A stretch of 28,291 nucleotides of DNA from a virus. Below, piece by piece: positions 13,100 through 28,291 of the stretch; within the stretch, counting starts at the first letter, position 1; each line of letters starts with the position of its first letter. The position numbers and the translations under genes are program-made. Under the pieces are notes generated by a model that was not told where the DNA came from, did not search any database, and worked only from the letters and a program-made list of their open reading frames with translations. The DNA lies in IMG/VR virus record IMGVR_UViG_3300021425_000133, positions 1-28,291 of that record; one strand, 5' to 3'.

Positions 13100-13128
13100 T
13101 ATATATAAATATAAATTACTTTGGTGAT

Positions 13129-13812
13129 TTAGTCAATTATATGGAATACATCGATTGTGTTTGACATTCTTTTTATTTTCTTTGACACCACCGGTCTTGT
13201 GAATTTGAATTCTGTTTCTTCAGTTTTAGAATTGTTGTATGGATTTTCTTCTCTGACATACTCTATTGATGGGTATGTCTTTTTTGCTTTGAACATCCAA
13301 GTTCTAATATCACTTATGATTCTGTAGTGTCTTTGACAAGTCAATTCGTCAAATGACAGGTCATTGTCGTCAAGTATTCTTTCAAAGTCCTCTGTGCTCG
13401 TTTTAAGGTACCTATAAGGTAATAAAATGTTGTGAGAGTATATACATCCATCTGAACCTATTTTGTAACCTACACCGTTCTTATTTTCCCTTCCTTCTTT
13501 GAGTGTTACATTCAGGTGTGTTTCTTTTATTCCAATCGTATCTACAATTTTTTTAACACATAGTTTAATCCAAGTCATTACATCTGATGCATCATCTCCA
13601 TTTGATAAATCAGGTTTTCTCTTGAATATCATTGCGTCATCAGGCGCATTCTCCAAATAGTATTCTGCCGCTAAATGATATTTTGCAATATCAGATGTTG
13701 GTTTAGTCTCAATATCTTTCAAACAATTTATGATTGATATACAAGTCATCTCAATTCCCTTATCCGTTGAGAAGATGTAAGGGTTTCCGTATTCGTCTAT
13801 TTTCTTTTTCAT
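13129..13812 (-). CDS. Hypothetical protein in the replication-type block, 227 aa
   Basis: I do not recognise a family. ATG at 13812 follows an AAAGAAAAAAG purine stretch and lies 11 bp after the upstream stop; a TTG start at 13836 would overlap the upstream gene and is less attractive. The protein begins MKKKIDEYGNPYIFSTDKG, has a helical middle (DVMTWIKLCVKKIVDTIGIKE), a segment 'YSHNILLPYRYLKTSTEDFERIL', then 'CQRHYRIISDIRTWMFKAKKTYPSIEY', and a basic C-terminus (VVSKKIKRM). It is encoded with the RHH protein and the KD-repeat replication-type protein, so a role in phage DNA replication or its control is plausible by context only. Confidence 0.6.
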   Translation of the reverse strand: MKKKIDEYGNPYIFSTDKGIEMTCISIINCLKDIETKPTSDIAKYHLAAEYYLENAPDDAMIFKRKPDLSNGDDASDVMTWIKLCVKKIVDTIGIKETHLNVTLKEGRENKNGVGYKIGSDGCIYSHNILLPYRYLKTSTEDFERILDDNDLSFDELTCQRHYRIISDIRTWMFKAKKTYPSIEYVREENPYNNSKTEETEFKFTRPVVSKKIKRMSNTIDVFHIID

Positions 13813-13823
13813 CTTTTTTCTTT

Positions 13824-14486
13824 TTACACTACCCAAATTTTTTGACTATCTGGTAATTGGTCATTTGGTATTTTATGATTTTTTTTCTGTATTGTCAAAT
13901 CCCATTCCCACTTTCTATCTTTGAGATAGTACATCAGATTGGTTGATTCGTTTCCTCTACTCTTATCCCATAAGATATATTTTTCTGCTTTCTCCAAAGC
14001 ATATTTCTTTTGGAACTCATCCAACACTATCCATTCTTTCACTATCTTGTTTTTTGCAAAGTCAGGTGATTTAAAAATCTCAAATAGTCGTGACAAGACA
14101 TTGTCTTTATCTGTATCTTTATCTATATCCTTATCTATATCCTTATCCTTATCCTTATAAAGGTTTTGATTAGGTTTAACCTGAGTTTTATCTTGGGTTT
14201 CAGTTAGGTTATTGTTAGGTTTCTGTTGGGTTTTTTTACCTCTTGGTCGACCACCTTTTTTACCATTCTCAACTGACGCCTTATATCTCTTTGTACTTGA
14301 ATCCAATGTTGGTTTAATTAAAATCCAAATTGATTTTTCGATACCGCTTAAATCAGGTTCAACATCAGAGAAGACATAATTACAGATTGCATCTATAACT
14401 TTACATCTACTTAACTCATCGGGTAGATTACTAATAGCATCCCAATAACTTTTATGGAATATAAATCCTGTAATGTCATCACTCAT
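13824..14486 (-). CDS. Replication-type protein (DUF6291-like N-terminus) with KD-repeat region
   Basis: This 220-aa protein starts MSDDITGFIFHKSYWDAISNLPDE. Its N-terminal ~90 residues follow a pattern known from phage and mobile-element proteins of the DUF6291 type: a domain 'F...Y..AI..LPD...C.VI.AI.NY.F....P.L.G', a helical 'IKPTLDSSTKRY' and the loop ENGKKGGRPRGKK. A hydrophilic linker (residues ~95-140) contains repeated Lys-Asp pairs (KDKDKDIDKD...), which in related proteins links the N-terminal domain to a helical C-terminal domain; here that is residues ~140-205. Such proteins are often found where a replication initiator is expected. Its start overlaps the RHH gene's stop as ATGA, so both are co-translated from the leftward early promoter. 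Confidence 0.65.
   Translation of the reverse strand: MSDDITGFIFHKSYWDAISNLPDELSRCKVIDAICNYVFSDVEPDLSGIEKSIWILIKPTLDSSTKRYKASVENGKKGGRPRGKKTQQKPNNNLTETQDKTQVKPNQNLYKDKDKDIDKDIDKDTDKDNVLSRLFEIFKSPDFAKNKIVKEWIVLDEFQKKYALEKAEKYILWDKSRGNESTNLMYYLKDRKWEWDLTIQKKNHKIPNDQLPDSQKIWVV
14104..14159. repeat. Hexanucleotide tandem repeat inside the replication-type gene
   Basis: About nine imperfect hexamers (AAGGAT or ATAGAT on the minus strand) encode the Lys-Asp / Ile-Asp run. The array is short, AT-rich and lies within a probable replication gene, an arrangement seen at some phage replication origins, but the repeats may simply encode a flexible linker. Confidence 0.6.
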
Positions 14487-14623
14487 TTGTCTACCTTTTC
14501 TAAATATTCATTTATGATTTTATCCATAGTGAATCCCAATTTATAACCTTTGCGATTACAAAATTCTTTTAGTCTTTCTTTTGTTTCAATTCGAACATGA
14601 ACTGGTTTTGTTTCTATCTTCAT
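14483..14623 (-). CDS. Small ribbon-helix-helix DNA-binding protein
   Basis: ATG at 14623 opens a 46-codon frame: MKIETKPVHVRIETKERLKE, then a loop (FCNRKGYKLGFT), then MDKIINEYLEKVDK. The pattern is a beta strand (KPVHVRIE), helix A (TKERLKEFCNRKG), a turn (YKLGFT) and helix B (MDKIINEYLEK), the Arc/MetJ/CopG fold. Such proteins act as dimers that insert the strand into the major groove, often as autorepressors. It is the first gene downstream of the leftward divergent promoter, 28 bp from the -7 box, and overlaps the following gene as ATGA. A plausible operator lies across the intergenic region. It probably regulates the early switch; the target site is inferred. Confidence 0.8.
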   Translation of the reverse strand: MKIETKPVHVRIETKERLKEFCNRKGYKLGFTMDKIINEYLEKVDK

Positions 14624-14650
14624 AGTTTTTGATTTAAATGTTTATAACAA

Positions 14651-14681
14651 TAAATATATGATGAATTGTTTTTTTTGTCAA
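14651..14681 (-). promoter_or_regulatory. Leftward early promoter
   Basis: On the minus strand TTGACA (14681-14676) is followed after 17 bp by TATATTTA (14658-14651). It therefore fits both a sigma70-like -35/-10 pair and the Bacteroidota TTG-N20-TAnnTTTG pattern with one mismatch. It lies 28 bp upstream of the ribbon-helix-helix gene. Confidence 0.75.
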
Positions 14682-14682
14682 C

Positions 14683-14713
14683 TTTACAAAAAAAACTTTA
14701 TTTCCTATATTTA
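14683..14713 (+). promoter_or_regulatory. Rightward early promoter
   Basis: TTTACA (14683-14688) is followed after 17 bp by TATATTTA (14706-14713), the same arrangement as the leftward promoter. The two upstream boxes are back to back, separated by a single base (14682). It precedes the HTH gene by 46 bp. Confidence 0.7.
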
Positions 14714-14717
14714 TAAT

Positions 14718-14733
14718 TGTAGTGGCTGCTACA
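14718..14733. promoter_or_regulatory. Putative operator palindrome at the rightward promoter start site
   Basis: TGTAGTGGCTGCTACA has perfect five-base inverted arms (TGTAG / CTACA) with a 6-nt centre. It starts four bases after the -7 box, so it would cover the transcription start. It may be bound by the RHH or HTH protein encoded on either side; the binder is inferred. Confidence 0.55.
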
Positions 14734-14759
14734 TAAATGAAATATAAAAAAAATACACA

Positions 14760-15071
14760 ATGACCCAAAAAACAAAAATAGGTGCATCAAAACTAAACTA
14801 TAACACCGCAGAAAGAATTAAAACACTCTGTGAAACAACAGATTTAACAGATGGTGAGATTGGTAGAGTCTTCGACATATCAAGACCACATATAAACCAC
14901 ATAAGACATTCAAGGAGATGGTTTGATGTGGAATCTATATCTACACATATAAAGAAAGAGAAAGTCTCTAAAAACCCCCTTAAAATGATTCATGACCTTA
15001 TGGTAAATTATGGGTTAGATAAATTGGAGTATGGAGATATGGAAGTATTTATGTATAAAGAGAATGAGTAA
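14760..15071 (+). CDS. Helix-turn-helix DNA-binding protein, first rightward early gene
   Basis: This 103-aa protein carries a resolvase/Xre-like helix-turn-helix at residues ~15-47 (YNTAERIKTLCETTDLTDGE then IGRVFDISRPHINHIRHSRRW). 'LTDGEIGRVFDISRPHINHI' fits helix 2-turn-recognition helix. The rest is basic and ends in an acidic tail. The gene is the first one behind the rightward promoter and its operator, opposite the RHH gene. That makes it a candidate regulator of the divergent pair. ATG at 14760 follows an A-rich leader with no obvious Shine-Dalgarno sequence. The stop overlaps the next gene's start by 8 bp. Confidence 0.8.
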   Translation: MTQKTKIGASKLNYNTAERIKTLCETTDLTDGEIGRVFDISRPHINHIRHSRRWFDVESISTHIKKEKVSKNPLKMIHDLMVNYGLDKLEYGDMEVFMYKENE

Positions 15072-15372
15072 GAGAAGGAACAACAGAAGAGTAATGAGTG
15101 GTGAAGGTGAATGGACATACAGATGTTCATTATGTCAAGAGTTCAAAACCTCTGACAACTTCCATTCTGACAACTCAAAACCTCCATTCAACCTCGCATA
15201 CAATTGCAAGGAATGTAGGAAATCATCTTGTAATAGACAACCCATACTTCTTGATTGGGAAACAGAACAAGGTTATCTTGCATTGGAATCATTGGGTTTT
15301 GATGTAAAAGAAGACATACATCAACAATTCATAGACAGAGTTGAGAAGAAGTATGGTGTAGTCCTTGTGTGA
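15064..15372 (+). CDS. Zinc-ribbon/treble-clef protein, copy A
   Basis: ATG at 15064 (MSKRRNNRRV) gives a 102-aa protein; an upstream ATG at 15031 lies inside the previous gene and is less likely. Two cysteine pairs, CSLC (C21, C24) and CKEC (C48, C51), bracket a 23-residue insert with 'F.TSDNFHSDNS', the pattern seen at the N-terminus of many phage HNH-type or zinc-finger proteins (CxxC...F...CxxC). No HNH catalytic residues follow. The C-terminal ~30 residues (LGFDVKEDIHQQF...KKYGVVLV) are clearly homologous to the second zinc protein at 16755-17060, so the two are paralogues. DNA binding or recruitment is the likely role; the target is unknown. Confidence 0.75.
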   Translation: MSKRRNNRRVMSGEGEWTYRCSLCQEFKTSDNFHSDNSKPPFNLAYNCKECRKSSCNRQPILLDWETEQGYLALESLGFDVKEDIHQQFIDRVEKKYGVVLV

Positions 15373-15637: not shown

Positions 15638-15655
15638 AAAGTTTATACTTTTTTG

Positions 15656-15684
15656 CCCCCACTTGAAATATAGTGGGGGTTTTT
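15656..15684 (+). terminator. Rho-independent terminator of the first early transcript
   Basis: CCCCCAC (15656-15662) pairs with GTGGGGG (15673-15679) around a 10-nt loop and is followed by TTTTT (15680-15684). There is no T-run on the other strand, so it acts rightward. It ends the transcript of the HTH, zinc-ribbon A and membrane-protein genes. Confidence 0.9.
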
Positions 15685-15685
15685 C

Positions 15686-15716
15686 TTGTGAGAACGAAAA
15701 CTCTGCCGTATATTTG
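15686..15716 (+). promoter_or_regulatory. Bacteroidota-type promoter directly behind the terminator
   Basis: TTG (15686-15688) is followed after 20 bp by TATATTTG (15709-15716), a perfect TAnnTTTG -7 box. TTGTGAGAAC at the -33 end recurs at the next promoter (15959-15968). It drives the 71-aa gene from a short leader of about 20 nt. Confidence 0.8.
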
Positions 15717-15958: not shown

Positions 15959-15989
15959 TTGTGAGAACCAATCTAATTCCCTATCTTTG
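15959..15989 (+). promoter_or_regulatory. Bacteroidota-type promoter giving a near-leaderless mRNA
   Basis: TTG (15959-15961) is followed after 20 bp by TATCTTTG (15982-15989), and ATG begins at 15994, only four bases later. The predicted start of transcription falls at or next to the start codon. The TTGTGAGAAC -33 end is shared with the promoter at 15686. Confidence 0.75.
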
Positions 15990-25781: not shown

Positions 25782-26378
25782 TTAGTATTTTTTATTTTCT
25801 TTAAGTTTATTAATCATACCTACTCTAAAGTCAGAAAAGTTTTCTTTGTATTCCTTATCTGATTTGAGGGGTGGAATTGACTCACTTTTTTTGAATTGGT
25901 TGTAGTCAGCCTCCAATGTTGTGAATTTCTCATTCATAGCGTCAATCTGTGTATTAAAAGCCAATAACAAATCGTGAATAGCCTCTTTGAGTTCTGTGAT
26001 TTGTGTATTAGATGTTTCAAAATCTTCAGATGATTCTGTCTCTTCAGACATTTCTTCTTCGTCTTTTGACGCTTCTTCTACAACCACTTCTTCCTCTGAT
26101 GAGGGCTCTTCACGAACTTCAACCAATATTGATTCTTCATCCAATACAATCTCTCTACCATCATCTAAACGATGAGTACCAGCAGGTGCTGGTTCAAATC
26201 CTTCTTCAGTTTCGATATAGATTGTATCACCTAAAGTTAAATCACCTTCAGATTGGTTTGATATGAATACCTCACCACCTTCAAGTGCAACTCTTTCGAA
26301 TTCAACTTTGGTTATTTCGTCATTGAACTTATAACCCACTAATTCAGCAATTTTACTCAATGCGTCTTTATATTGCAT
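25782..26378 (-). CDS. Scaffold-like protein
   Basis: This 198-aa protein has an N-terminal beta region (residues ~25-85, with 'GDLTLGDTIYIETEEGFEPAPAGTHRLDDG' and 'EIVLDEESILVEV'), then a strongly acidic segment (88-122) of Glu, Ser and Asp, then a coiled coil (about 124-165: 'TQITELKEAIHDLLLAF' ... 'MNEKFTTLEADY'), and a basic end. Proteins of this architecture before the capsid gene in Bacteroidota phages act in head assembly; the acidic part and coiled coil suit a scaffolding protein. The start overlaps the protease stop by 11 bp; the stop is one base from the capsid start. Confidence 0.75.
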   Translation of the reverse strand: MQYKDALSKIAELVGYKFNDEITKVEFERVALEGGEVFISNQSEGDLTLGDTIYIETEEGFEPAPAGTHRLDDGREIVLDEESILVEVREEPSSEEEVVVEEASKDEEEMSEETESSEDFETSNTQITELKEAIHDLLLAFNTQIDAMNEKFTTLEADYNQFKKSESIPPLKSDKEYKENFSDFRVGMINKLKENKKY

Positions 26379-28291
26379 TATTTTGTGATTTATAAAAATT
26401 GTTTATGATAGACTTAATCTCTGATATAAATACTTCATCTTTTGAATTATACAAACTATTTTGTACATCGATTAGAATATCGTGTGCTTCACAAGGCATA
26501 TACTCACCTGGTCTATGTTGGTGTACTCCAACACACCCATATTTCTCAAGTCCGTATTTTCTTGCTTCTTCTTCATTATCAAATATGGGGAGACCATCCA
26601 TCTCACCTATTTGTTTCATTCCTACAGCATTTAGATTACCAGGTCTTGATAGGAAACTCCCTTCAAGTGATATACCTTTTGTCTTATCTGATAGGACATA
26701 TTTTTCAAACATCTGTTTATTATCCCACTTGATTGTTGCCATCCAAGTGCCAGGGTTTACTTTGAATCCCATTGTTGCTGCTTTATCTTTTTCAGGGTCA
26801 TCAACAATCCAAGATTCATATACATATCCCCCATTCAATTCTAAACCAGAATGTTCATAATTAAATGATTTGTGTCTGTCCTCTTTGAAGAACTTACGAG
26901 CCATCTTTCTAATGGTATCTTCACTAAAGAAGACATAGTATAAGTCACCTAACTCCGACCTACGGGGGATGTACCTATTGGGTTCCATTACAACTGTTGT
27001 AACCTCGTAATTCAATTCATCAGCAAAGTTCTGATTTGCTTTTACACAGTTTGGAACTTCTCTACCATCTTTGATTTTTGTTCCATATGCGATATAACCT
27101 TCTTGACATGGATTGGGTGTAATGAAATCTTCTGACAATGGTAATACATCATCGGGGTAACCTCTTGTTTCAGGGTATCTTTCCTCATAACATTTCATTC
27201 TCGCTTCATCTTCACCATAACCATTATCTAAGTAACCCTGAACACAACCCATTCTATACTCATATCTTTTTACAAGTTCTTCTTGTATTTGTCTTAACTT
27301 TCTTTCACTCCAACCTAAGGCTTCCTCACCACCCCATAACAAATAAGATATTGTACCACACGCTTCAGTGTCAGATGGGTTGTAATATTCTTTTGCTCTT
27401 GAAAGATATGAGTACATTCTTGCTATAGTTTCCTCTGAAATGGGTTCACCTTGTGCTAATTGCTGAGCCCTGACTTTACCAGTTTGGGTCGCACACTTAT
27501 TACCCACTTCCTCGTTCAATCTAATACCTCTTGCTGCGTTATCTCTAATCACTTGGGGGTAGTCATCATATGATTCAAATTCCTCCATTCTAACGGAGTT
27601 TAAGACCTTCACATCTGCATTGAAGTAGTCATCATTTTCAGGTATACCACCGATGAAACCTCTAACACCTTCGAACTCTATTTCACATATTGCTGTTGCA
27701 TATGGTTCACCTTCAAACATTGCTTTGGGGGAATTATAAACAACAAGACCTTCCAATAGACCGATTGCACCTTCTTGTGAGTTCATATAAATCTTATACT
27801 CACTGATACCACCTCTACCTGCTTGTAGTTCTACTGATGGTCTACCTTCACCTATGTTCGATGCCAATGCTGTCTTTGCTCTCTTTGGAATCTTACTGAC
27901 AAACTCTTCTGTTGAAACACCCTGAGGTATCTTCCAAATAATCTTCTTGAACAAATGTCTACAATACTTACCTGATTTGTAAATCTTCAAGTTAACGGAT
28001 GTACCGGCAGTTCTTGGAACTAACTTTCTATTGTTAGCATCAGCATTTACTTCTGCTGATAGTTGAACCAAATCATCATCTCTATAAACCAAATCTTTTC
28101 TGATTAGTTGTCTACATAACTTCCTTGATTCTTTGATTAGAGTAGCCCCCAATCCAACATCTACAGCGTAGTAGTATCTAACCACCTCACCATTCAATCC
28201 ATCACCTGTATCGATTGCTTTTGGATTTGAGTTAATTGTGTAGAACTCCTCTTCTGTAAGGTCTTCTACCTTGAACCCTTCCGTATTGGAA
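26368..28291 (-). CDS. XkdF-like prohead protease/head protein, main part (continues at position 342)
   Basis: This is residues ~67 to 705 of the protein that begins at 342 in the left end. Regions in order are 'SRKLCRQLIRKDLVYRDDDL...CRHLF' (about 115-185), a phage head motif; a middle domain with 'ARGIRLNEEVGNKCATQTG', 'KVRAQQLAQGEPI' and 'YLLWGGEEALGWSERKL' (305-390), common in aquatic phages; and a Peptidase_S78_2/XkdF domain (505-610) with 'YYVFFSEDTIRKMARKFF', 'YESWIVDDPE', 'PGTWMATIKW' and 'GISLEGSF'. A C-terminal 'GVHQHRPGEYMPCEAHD' follows. It is probably a maturation protease fused to head-assembly domains. A frame read from 28197 alone would miss the N-terminus. It overlaps the scaffold gene's start by 11 bp. 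Confidence 0.85.
   Translation of the reverse strand, partial: SNTEGFKVEDLTEEEFYTINSNPKAIDTGDGLNGEVVRYYYAVDVGLGATLIKESRKLCRQLIRKDLVYRDDDLVQLSAEVNADANNRKLVPRTAGTSVNLKIYKSGKYCRHLFKKIIWKIPQGVSTEEFVSKIPKRAKTALASNIGEGRPSVELQAGRGGISEYKIYMNSQEGAIGLLEGLVVYNSPKAMFEGEPYATAICEIEFEGVRGFIGGIPENDDYFNADVKVLNSVRMEEFESYDDYPQVIRDNAARGIRLNEEVGNKCATQTGKVRAQQLAQGEPISEETIARMYSYLSRAKEYYNPSDTEACGTISYLLWGGEEALGWSERKLRQIQEELVKRYEYRMGCVQGYLDNGYGEDEARMKCYEERYPETRGYPDDVLPLSEDFITPNPCQEGYIAYGTKIKDGREVPNCVKANQNFADELNYEVTTVVMEPNRYIPRRSELGDLYYVFFSEDTIRKMARKFFKEDRHKSFNYEHSGLELNGGYVYESWIVDDPEKDKAATMGFKVNPGTWMATIKWDNKQMFEKYVLSDKTKGISLEGSFLSRPGNLNAVGMKQIGEMDGLPIFDNEEEARKYGLEKYGCVGVHQHRPGEYMPCEAHDILIDVQNSLYNSKDEVFISEIKSIINNFYKSQNNAI
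28144..28291. repeat. Right copy of the terminal overlap
   Basis: This repeats positions 1-148 with three mismatches at 28270, 28282 and 28288. Each is at a third codon position of the gene across the junction and leaves the amino acid unchanged. The identical part is 126 bp. Confidence 0.93.

Follow-up and report, generated by a model that had tools for sequence, protein, structure and literature searches.

Genes and features of the divergent locus

The locus is a 136-bp spacer between an RHH (ribbon-helix-helix) gene and an HTH gene in the window, the term used here for the whole analysed DNA, a virus record of 28,291 bp. Two gene series leave this spacer in opposite directions (Table 1). 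The leftward series begins with the RHH and DUF6291 genes and runs on to the terminase, and the rightward series is a run of clustered genes for small proteins. A terminal direct repeat was found at positions 1-148 and 28144-28291 (145 of 148 positions identical), and from this 148-bp end overlap the window probably represents nearly all of a genome of about 28.1 kb, circular or circularly permuted. Matches to the terminase were obtained in 2189 phage records; the best 15 of the 2189 were all from phages of Phocaeicola or OM05-12 hosts, the latter of which we take to be Bacteroidota, at about 37% identity. Weaker matches to many phages of other phyla were also obtained. Judged by its sequence, the virus is probably a small phage with a Bacteroidota host. 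In addition, a 640-aa open frame at 26368-28290 matched a phage protease (Peptidase_S78_2, E 1.7e-10) and, more weakly, DUF3721 in one chain.

Table 1. Position and strand of the genes and sequence elements at the divergent locus, in window coordinates.
Feature	Position	Strand	Remarks
Further leftward promoter TTG-N20-TATATTTA	13106..13136	-	3' end of the 235-aa gene; L002 has it at the matching place
235-aa gene	13129..13836	-	Third leftward gene; 61% identical in L002
DUF6291 protein	13824..14486	-	Second leftward gene; PF19808, E 9e-19
46-aa RHH protein	14483..14623	-	First leftward gene; stop overlaps DUF6291 start (ATGA)
Leftward promoter TTGACA-N17-TATATTTA (TTG-N20-box)	14651..14681	-	Predicted +1 14645-14646, leader 22-23 nt; same boxes and spacing in L002 and L039
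Inverted repeat GTTTTTTTTGTcaactttACAAAAAAAAC	14668..14696	.	11-bp arms, spans both -35 elements; candidate shared operator
Rightward promoter TTTACA-N17-TATATTTA	14683..14713	+	Predicted +1 14718-14719, leader 41-42 nt; counterpart in L002 is TTG-N20-TATATTTA
Palindrome TGTAGtggctgCTACA (TGTAG-N6-CTACA)	14718..14733	+	First bases are the predicted rightward +1; perfect 5-bp arms
103-aa HTH protein	14760..15071	+	First rightward gene
Zinc-ribbon (endonuclease VII-like) protein	15064..15372	+	Second rightward gene
Intrinsic terminator-like hairpin	15655..15680	+	-17.5 kcal/mol, z -4.4; may end the first rightward unit
Promoter-like site TTGTGAGAAC...TATATTTG	15686..15716	+	Just past the terminator-like hairpin
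Promoter-like site TTGTGAGAAC...TATCTTTG	15959..15989	+	Box ends 4 nt before ATG 15994

The two flanking genes had been read in an earlier note as encoding an RHH protein on the left and an HTH protein on the right. For the left gene, this reading was supported at the family level. A profile of 18 rows matched PDB 2kel (E 4.8e-12) and ParG 1p94 (E 1.2e-5), and among the 18 members, 10 matched Pfam ParG, 6 Omega_Repress and 5 56B_RHH at E ≤0.1; the window protein alone gave no Pfam match above the cut-off. Its predicted model contained helices at residues 12-25 and 31-45 and an N-terminus with no assigned strand, at middling confidence (mean pLDDT 69), and found no Foldseek match at E up to 10. 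The overlap of its stop codon with the start of the DUF6291 gene suggested coupling of the two genes. For the right gene, a confidently helical HTH-like region in the predicted model (blocks with pLDDT 84-91) was consistent with an HTH protein, and 4 of the 22 proteins in the family matched HTH_7, at best with E 4.9e-5. The window HTH protein alone did not match HTH_7, its model had no Foldseek match with E ≤0.001, and as a direct query it found no relatives in viral contigs or phage records.

Relatives of the DUF6291 protein were found in genome contigs at 29-50% identity, at 21 loci at least, which among the matches listed were mostly from Clostridia and Alistipes/Rikenellaceae MAGs. No mention of DUF6291 by name was found in the full texts searched. 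The 235-aa pair as a query found only L002, the related viral locus discussed below. The DUF6291 protein of the window also carries a lysine-aspartate repeat (KDKDKD...) after the conserved domain, and this repeat is kept in relatives. Downstream of the first two rightward genes, the sites at 15686 and 15959 have the same -33 element, TTGTGAGAAC, and these are its only exact copies in the window. From the position of the TATCTTTG box relative to the ATG, the mRNA of the second site is predicted to be leaderless.

The promoter pair and its recurrence in related phages

Every promoter element that the earlier note had placed in the spacer was found in the place given there. The -35-like elements of the two promoters are separated by a single base, and the leftward and rightward promoters agree at 24 of 31 positions. 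Probable promoters of F. johnsoniae are described as having a -7 box TAHHTTTG, with transcription starting 4-5 nt past the box, a nearly invariant G at -5 and a faint -33 element (PMC6847099). The predicted +1 positions in Table 1 were placed by this published rule. The remark in the note that both boxes satisfy the Bacteroidota TTG-N20-TAnnTTTG spacing was correct, but some of the letters differ from that pattern: each -7 box ends in A where the pattern has G, and in the rightward promoter the -33 triplet reads TTT in place of TTG. The boxes, both TATATTTA, match every fixed position of TAHHTTTG except the G at -5. The leftward promoter has TTG some 20 nt ahead of its box, and at the rightward one L002 has TTG where the window has TTT, in an element that is faint in F. 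johnsoniae itself.

Scans of the single sequence gave counts near expectation. A sigma-70 scan over 2.5 kb found 13 sites where 13.5 were expected. When at most one mismatch was allowed, TTG-N20-TAnnTTTG had 23 sites in the window against 18.9 expected, a number reached in 17 of 100 shuffles, and TTG-N20-TATATTTA had 5 against 2.0, reached in 5 of 100. From the window sequence alone, the promoter pair is barely above chance, and it is the comparison with relatives, not these scans, that raises it above chance. A chance resemblance in AT-rich spacer DNA would be in agreement with the scans, but it is contradicted by the comparative counts, in which boxes and spacing are conserved and in strong excess, and it is hardly credible.

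The same divergent promoter pair was present in L002, whose DUF6291 protein, 235-aa gene and RHH protein were 65%, 61% and 33% identical to those of the window, and the further leftward promoter at 13106-13136 had its match in L002 at 1669-1699. Both -7 boxes and the TTG-N20 spacing were kept in L002 and L039. A pattern scan found 25 stretches with the promoter pair, including L039 and L051, in which the gene order is that of the window, HTH and then zinc ribbon; most of the others lay outside this module. Furthermore, a profile search with the zinc-ribbon protein gave 86 viral loci, and 80 of these were used further. Where at least 700 bp of upstream sequence was available, a divergent RHH, HTH and/or DUF6291 gene occurred within 900 bp in 37 of 68 loci (18 with RHH and DUF6291, 7 with HTH, 6 with HTH and DUF6291, 5 with DUF6291 and 1 with RHH), and a recognised divergent partner was absent in the remaining 31.

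The divergent spacers of the window, L002 and 26 other loci were compared (n = 28; for L002 and L124, the left start was assigned manually). Both promoters were exact in 10 of the 28 spacers (shuffle mean 0.02, maximum 1 in 300 rounds), although this count and those that follow overstate independence because the spacers are mutually related. The left promoter was exact in 19 (mean 0.46, maximum 3) and the right one in 12 (mean 1.0, maximum 4). When one mismatch was allowed, both were found in 19 spacers (mean 3.2, maximum 8), among them that of the window, which was not one of the exact 10; the other 9 lacked at least one promoter even at this level. The exact pair of L111, with sites 248 bp apart, and the looser pair of L086, with sites far apart, are probably spurious and probably not one unit. 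With this comparison, the sequence bore out the description of the spacer, in which an RHH gene and an HTH gene flank two divergent promoters in a compact arrangement.

The distance between the opposed TTG (or TTT) elements differed among members. It was 1 bp in the window, 2 bp in L002, 3 bp in L105, L107 and L124, 5-6 bp in L082 and L094, and 16 bp in L098, and in L070, L072 and L131 the TTG elements overlap by about 15 bp, the -35 elements forming palindromes such as TTGATAAATAATCAA. Since the elements of some members overlap by about 15 bp and those of others are more than 15 bp apart, strict exclusion between RNA polymerases cannot be general; it is plausible for some members and not for all. 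In L072, L131, L070 and L122, the overlap of the opposed -35 elements as a palindrome (TTGATAAATAATCAA, TTGGATTTTCCAA) makes a bidirectional core tighter than that of the window.

The leaders of the relatives were examined upstream of the zinc-ribbon gene. From the 80 loci, 2 with less than 40 nt upstream were left out, and the other 78 were dereplicated to 58 regions, with a threshold of 90% ungapped identity across the final 120 nt; the starts of L073 and L087 were assigned manually. Of these regions, 53 were counted, L104 among them; the rest were left out as cut or wrongly started. A TAnnTTT[AG] box lay 4-8 nt before the zinc-ribbon start in 28 of the 53 dereplicated regions (28 of 58 with no region left out), compared with a shuffle mean of 2.05 and a maximum of 6 in 300 rounds. 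All 28 boxes were TATATTTA, at 5, 6 or 7 nt from the start. The full TTG-N19-21-box promoter was found at the same 4-8 nt in 17 of 53 regions (shuffle mean 0.17). Other ORFs of 52 zinc-ribbon loci served as a control; of these 369 ORFs, 48 had the box at 4-8 nt and 20 had the full promoter, so such promoters also occur internally. By the start rule described above, a box 5-7 nt before the start codon predicts leaders of 0-3 nt, and the messages of the relatives are thus predicted to be near-leaderless. The window and L002 departed from this, their predicted leaders being about 14 to 42 nt long; those of the window are about 23 nt (left) and 42 nt (right). An 8-codon upstream frame lies in the HTH leader of the window (14737-14763), and its TGA overlaps the start codon of the HTH gene (ATGA); on visual inspection, the L051 leader has no such frame.

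Inverted repeats in the spacer

The palindrome TGTAGtggctgCTACA, which the earlier note had located at the rightward start site, does begin at the predicted +1. Its proposed role as the operator of the system did not hold among relatives. It was missing from the aligned spacers of L002 and L039, and when related phages were searched for TGTAG-N4..8-CTACA, 1 of 28 divergent spacers had it, namely that of the window. In related contigs it occurred only away from the spacer, in L011, L094 and L144 (one contig) and in L061. At the aligned place, L051 has TGTG-N5-CACA, a weak inverted repeat with 4-bp arms and a loose echo of TGTAGtggctgCTACA. Inverted repeats with 5-bp arms and at least two G/C per arm appeared in 10.7% of shuffles of the window spacer.

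Two roles were considered for this palindrome. As a clade-specific operator downstream of the rightward start, it would be bound by the HTH or RHH protein, which would thereby block its own early transcription. The perfect 5-bp arms beginning at the predicted +1 and the repeat of L051 at the aligned place are in agreement with this role, but an equivalent repeat is not rare in shuffles, and L002 and L039 do without the palindrome although both encode a member of the RHH family and L039 encodes one of the HTH family as well. We regard this role as unlikely. Because the palindrome starts at the predicted +1, a hairpin in the RNA is as good a candidate as an operator; placed at the extreme 5' end, it would shield the HTH mRNA from decay. 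The first or second palindrome base is the predicted +1, and the RNA can form a 6-bp hairpin of -5.2 kcal/mol, but this stability is unremarkable (z -1.1; 25 of 200 shuffles were as good), and the L051 version is weak (-2.5 kcal/mol; in two stretches offset slightly from each other, 119 and 68 of 200 shuffles did as well). The RNA role is conceivable at somewhat under an even chance. The palindrome may be a young clade-specific operator or a 5' mRNA hairpin.

A genome-wide operator was also considered and rejected. With up to two mismatches, the window had 29 sites compared with 15.8 expected, a number reached in 0 of 100 shuffles, but the TGTAG arm ranked only fourth among 30 letter-permuted arms (range 9-41), so the excess is not specific. 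A search for the TATATTTA box followed by the palindrome found 56 viral stretches, none with the genes of this module in the sequence examined and 4 with TTG at the right spacing. By eye, these were mostly coding sequence, except for two unrelated promoter-like groups. In other phages (L230, L234, L243, L263, L269 and L280, with L234 and L243 being two copies on one contig), a promoter-like stretch TTGACA...TATATTTAATTGTAGGATTTnCTACA followed by AGGAGGG recurred, possibly a phage regulon with a start-site palindrome. In another phage group (L229, L232, L236, L245, L256 and L277), a terminator-like hairpin was followed by TATATTTA-N4-TGTAGTATATACTACA at 32-38 nt before a start codon.

The most marked dyad of the spacer had been overlooked by the note. 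The repeat GTTTTTTTTGTcaactttACAAAAAAAAC, centred on the junction of the -35 elements, was equalled in 10 of 1000 shuffles. It may be largely a by-product of two similar promoters facing apart, or a candidate shared operator. For the -35 dyad of L002, 51 of 200 shuffles were as good, and the long dyad is not clearly conserved.

Early expression and comparison with known systems

Neither a tyrosine integrase (PF00589) nor a serine recombinase (PF00239) was found in the window and 13 related records (0 of 14; 28.2-31.5 kb, possibly incomplete). The remark in the earlier note that no integrase is recognised was supported, and so was its preference for control of early timing over lysogeny, whereas its description of the locus as the layout of a genetic switch was not supported. 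Moreover, no relative of the zinc-ribbon protein was found in genome contigs. In a switch of the lysogeny type, the RHH and HTH proteins would be opposing repressors acting on TGTAG-N6-CTACA and the -35 region to give a two-state choice. Two small DNA-binding proteins flanking a divergent promoter, a palindrome at the rightward start and the distant DUF6291 loci in bacterial genome contigs would suit such a switch, and the last of these leave room for distant prophage forms. Against it stand the results on integrases and on the zinc-ribbon protein, the lack of the palindrome in L002 and L039, and the position of the HTH family, which in 38 of 62 zinc-ribbon loci with at least 900 bp downstream lay behind the zinc-ribbon gene and not directly at the promoter. 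A lysogeny switch is very improbable. The lack of a recognised integrase argues against lysogeny, and other forms of persistence may occur.

Since the layout recurs, the palindrome does not and no integration gene was found, the locus is better read as a starting point of early expression than as a lysogeny switch. From sequence comparison, the spacer appears to be an ordinary kind of divergent early promoter with a well-conserved layout and a putative regulation by the RHH protein. We consider it likely that the pair starts two diverging early operons of an apparently strictly lytic phage; the RHH protein may repress its own operon through the -35 dyad. Two back-to-back promoters with adjacent -35-like elements, of a type that the primary sigma factor of Bacteroidota recognises, would give a leftward transcript of RHH, DUF6291 and the 235-aa gene and a rightward one of HTH, zinc ribbon and further small genes. 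The host RNA polymerase would use both on DNA entry, and the closeness of the -35 elements would limit simultaneous polymerase binding. The RHH protein (46 aa, its gene overlapping the next) would then bind the -35 dyad and autorepress its operon, like CopG before RepB. The TGTAG palindrome would be an accessory element peculiar to this clade, and its simplest role would be that of a 5'-terminal hairpin in the HTH mRNA.

A broader reading is more speculative. A widespread, apparently lytic family of Bacteroidota phages may drive early expression from a single bidirectional promoter core common to its members, with an adjoining regulator that is RHH or an unrelated HTH depending on the member, -35 elements ranging from overlapping palindromes to separated ones, and often leaderless messages. 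An RHH or HTH protein at the -35 dyad would shut both operons, as an early-to-late or copy-number timer without lysogeny. This wider picture is doubtful as a whole.

The lambda-type cI/cro immunity region also has divergent promoters between two regulator genes. The window resembles it in this respect and differs in having no recognised integrase, in a proposed operator that is unconserved and in a layout that recurs in apparently lytic phages. The nearest functional analogy may be the copG-repB operon. CopG is a protein of about 45 aa. It represses the copG-repB operon of pMV158-type plasmids, in which, as in the window, a short RHH repressor gene shares its operon with a second gene (PMC6607859). 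The second gene encodes a replication initiator in that system and DUF6291 here; the RHH family profile of the window matches ParG, Omega (weakly) and 56B, and the window has a divergent second promoter as well. Control of CopG-RepB involves a symmetric promoter operator bound by the RHH protein, for which the -35 dyad is a candidate counterpart.

Pseudo-symmetrical bidirectional promoters of E. coli have an overlapping -10 arrangement. They resemble the window in that the opposed promoters are close enough for polymerase hindrance, and basal transcription at five tested bidirectional promoters is described as too low for competition (PMC12825309). The window differs in that both of its back-to-back promoters are complete, with about 72 bp between the predicted starts. 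Compared with promoters of the Bacteroidota sigma-A (sigma-ABfr; -33 TTTG, -7 TAnnTTTG), as described in PMC6847099 and PMC9723704, the window was alike in the spacing of TTG-N20-box, the TA..TTT core and the position relative to the predicted start. The -7 box of those promoters ends in G, whereas that of the window ends in A, as do the 28 TATATTTA boxes before the zinc-ribbon genes of its relatives.

No work on phage early promoters in Flavobacterium, or on promoters or leaderless mRNA of Bacteroidetes phages, was found by title or abstract opening, and little seems to have been described of how Bacteroidota phages control early transcription. The comparison yields a testable promoter core that recurs in dozens of environmental contigs. 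It also gives a simple prediction of near-leaderless early mRNAs, a class that is rare in the hosts studied and made up 5.5% of the mRNAs examined in F. psychrophilum, as given in PMC9723704.
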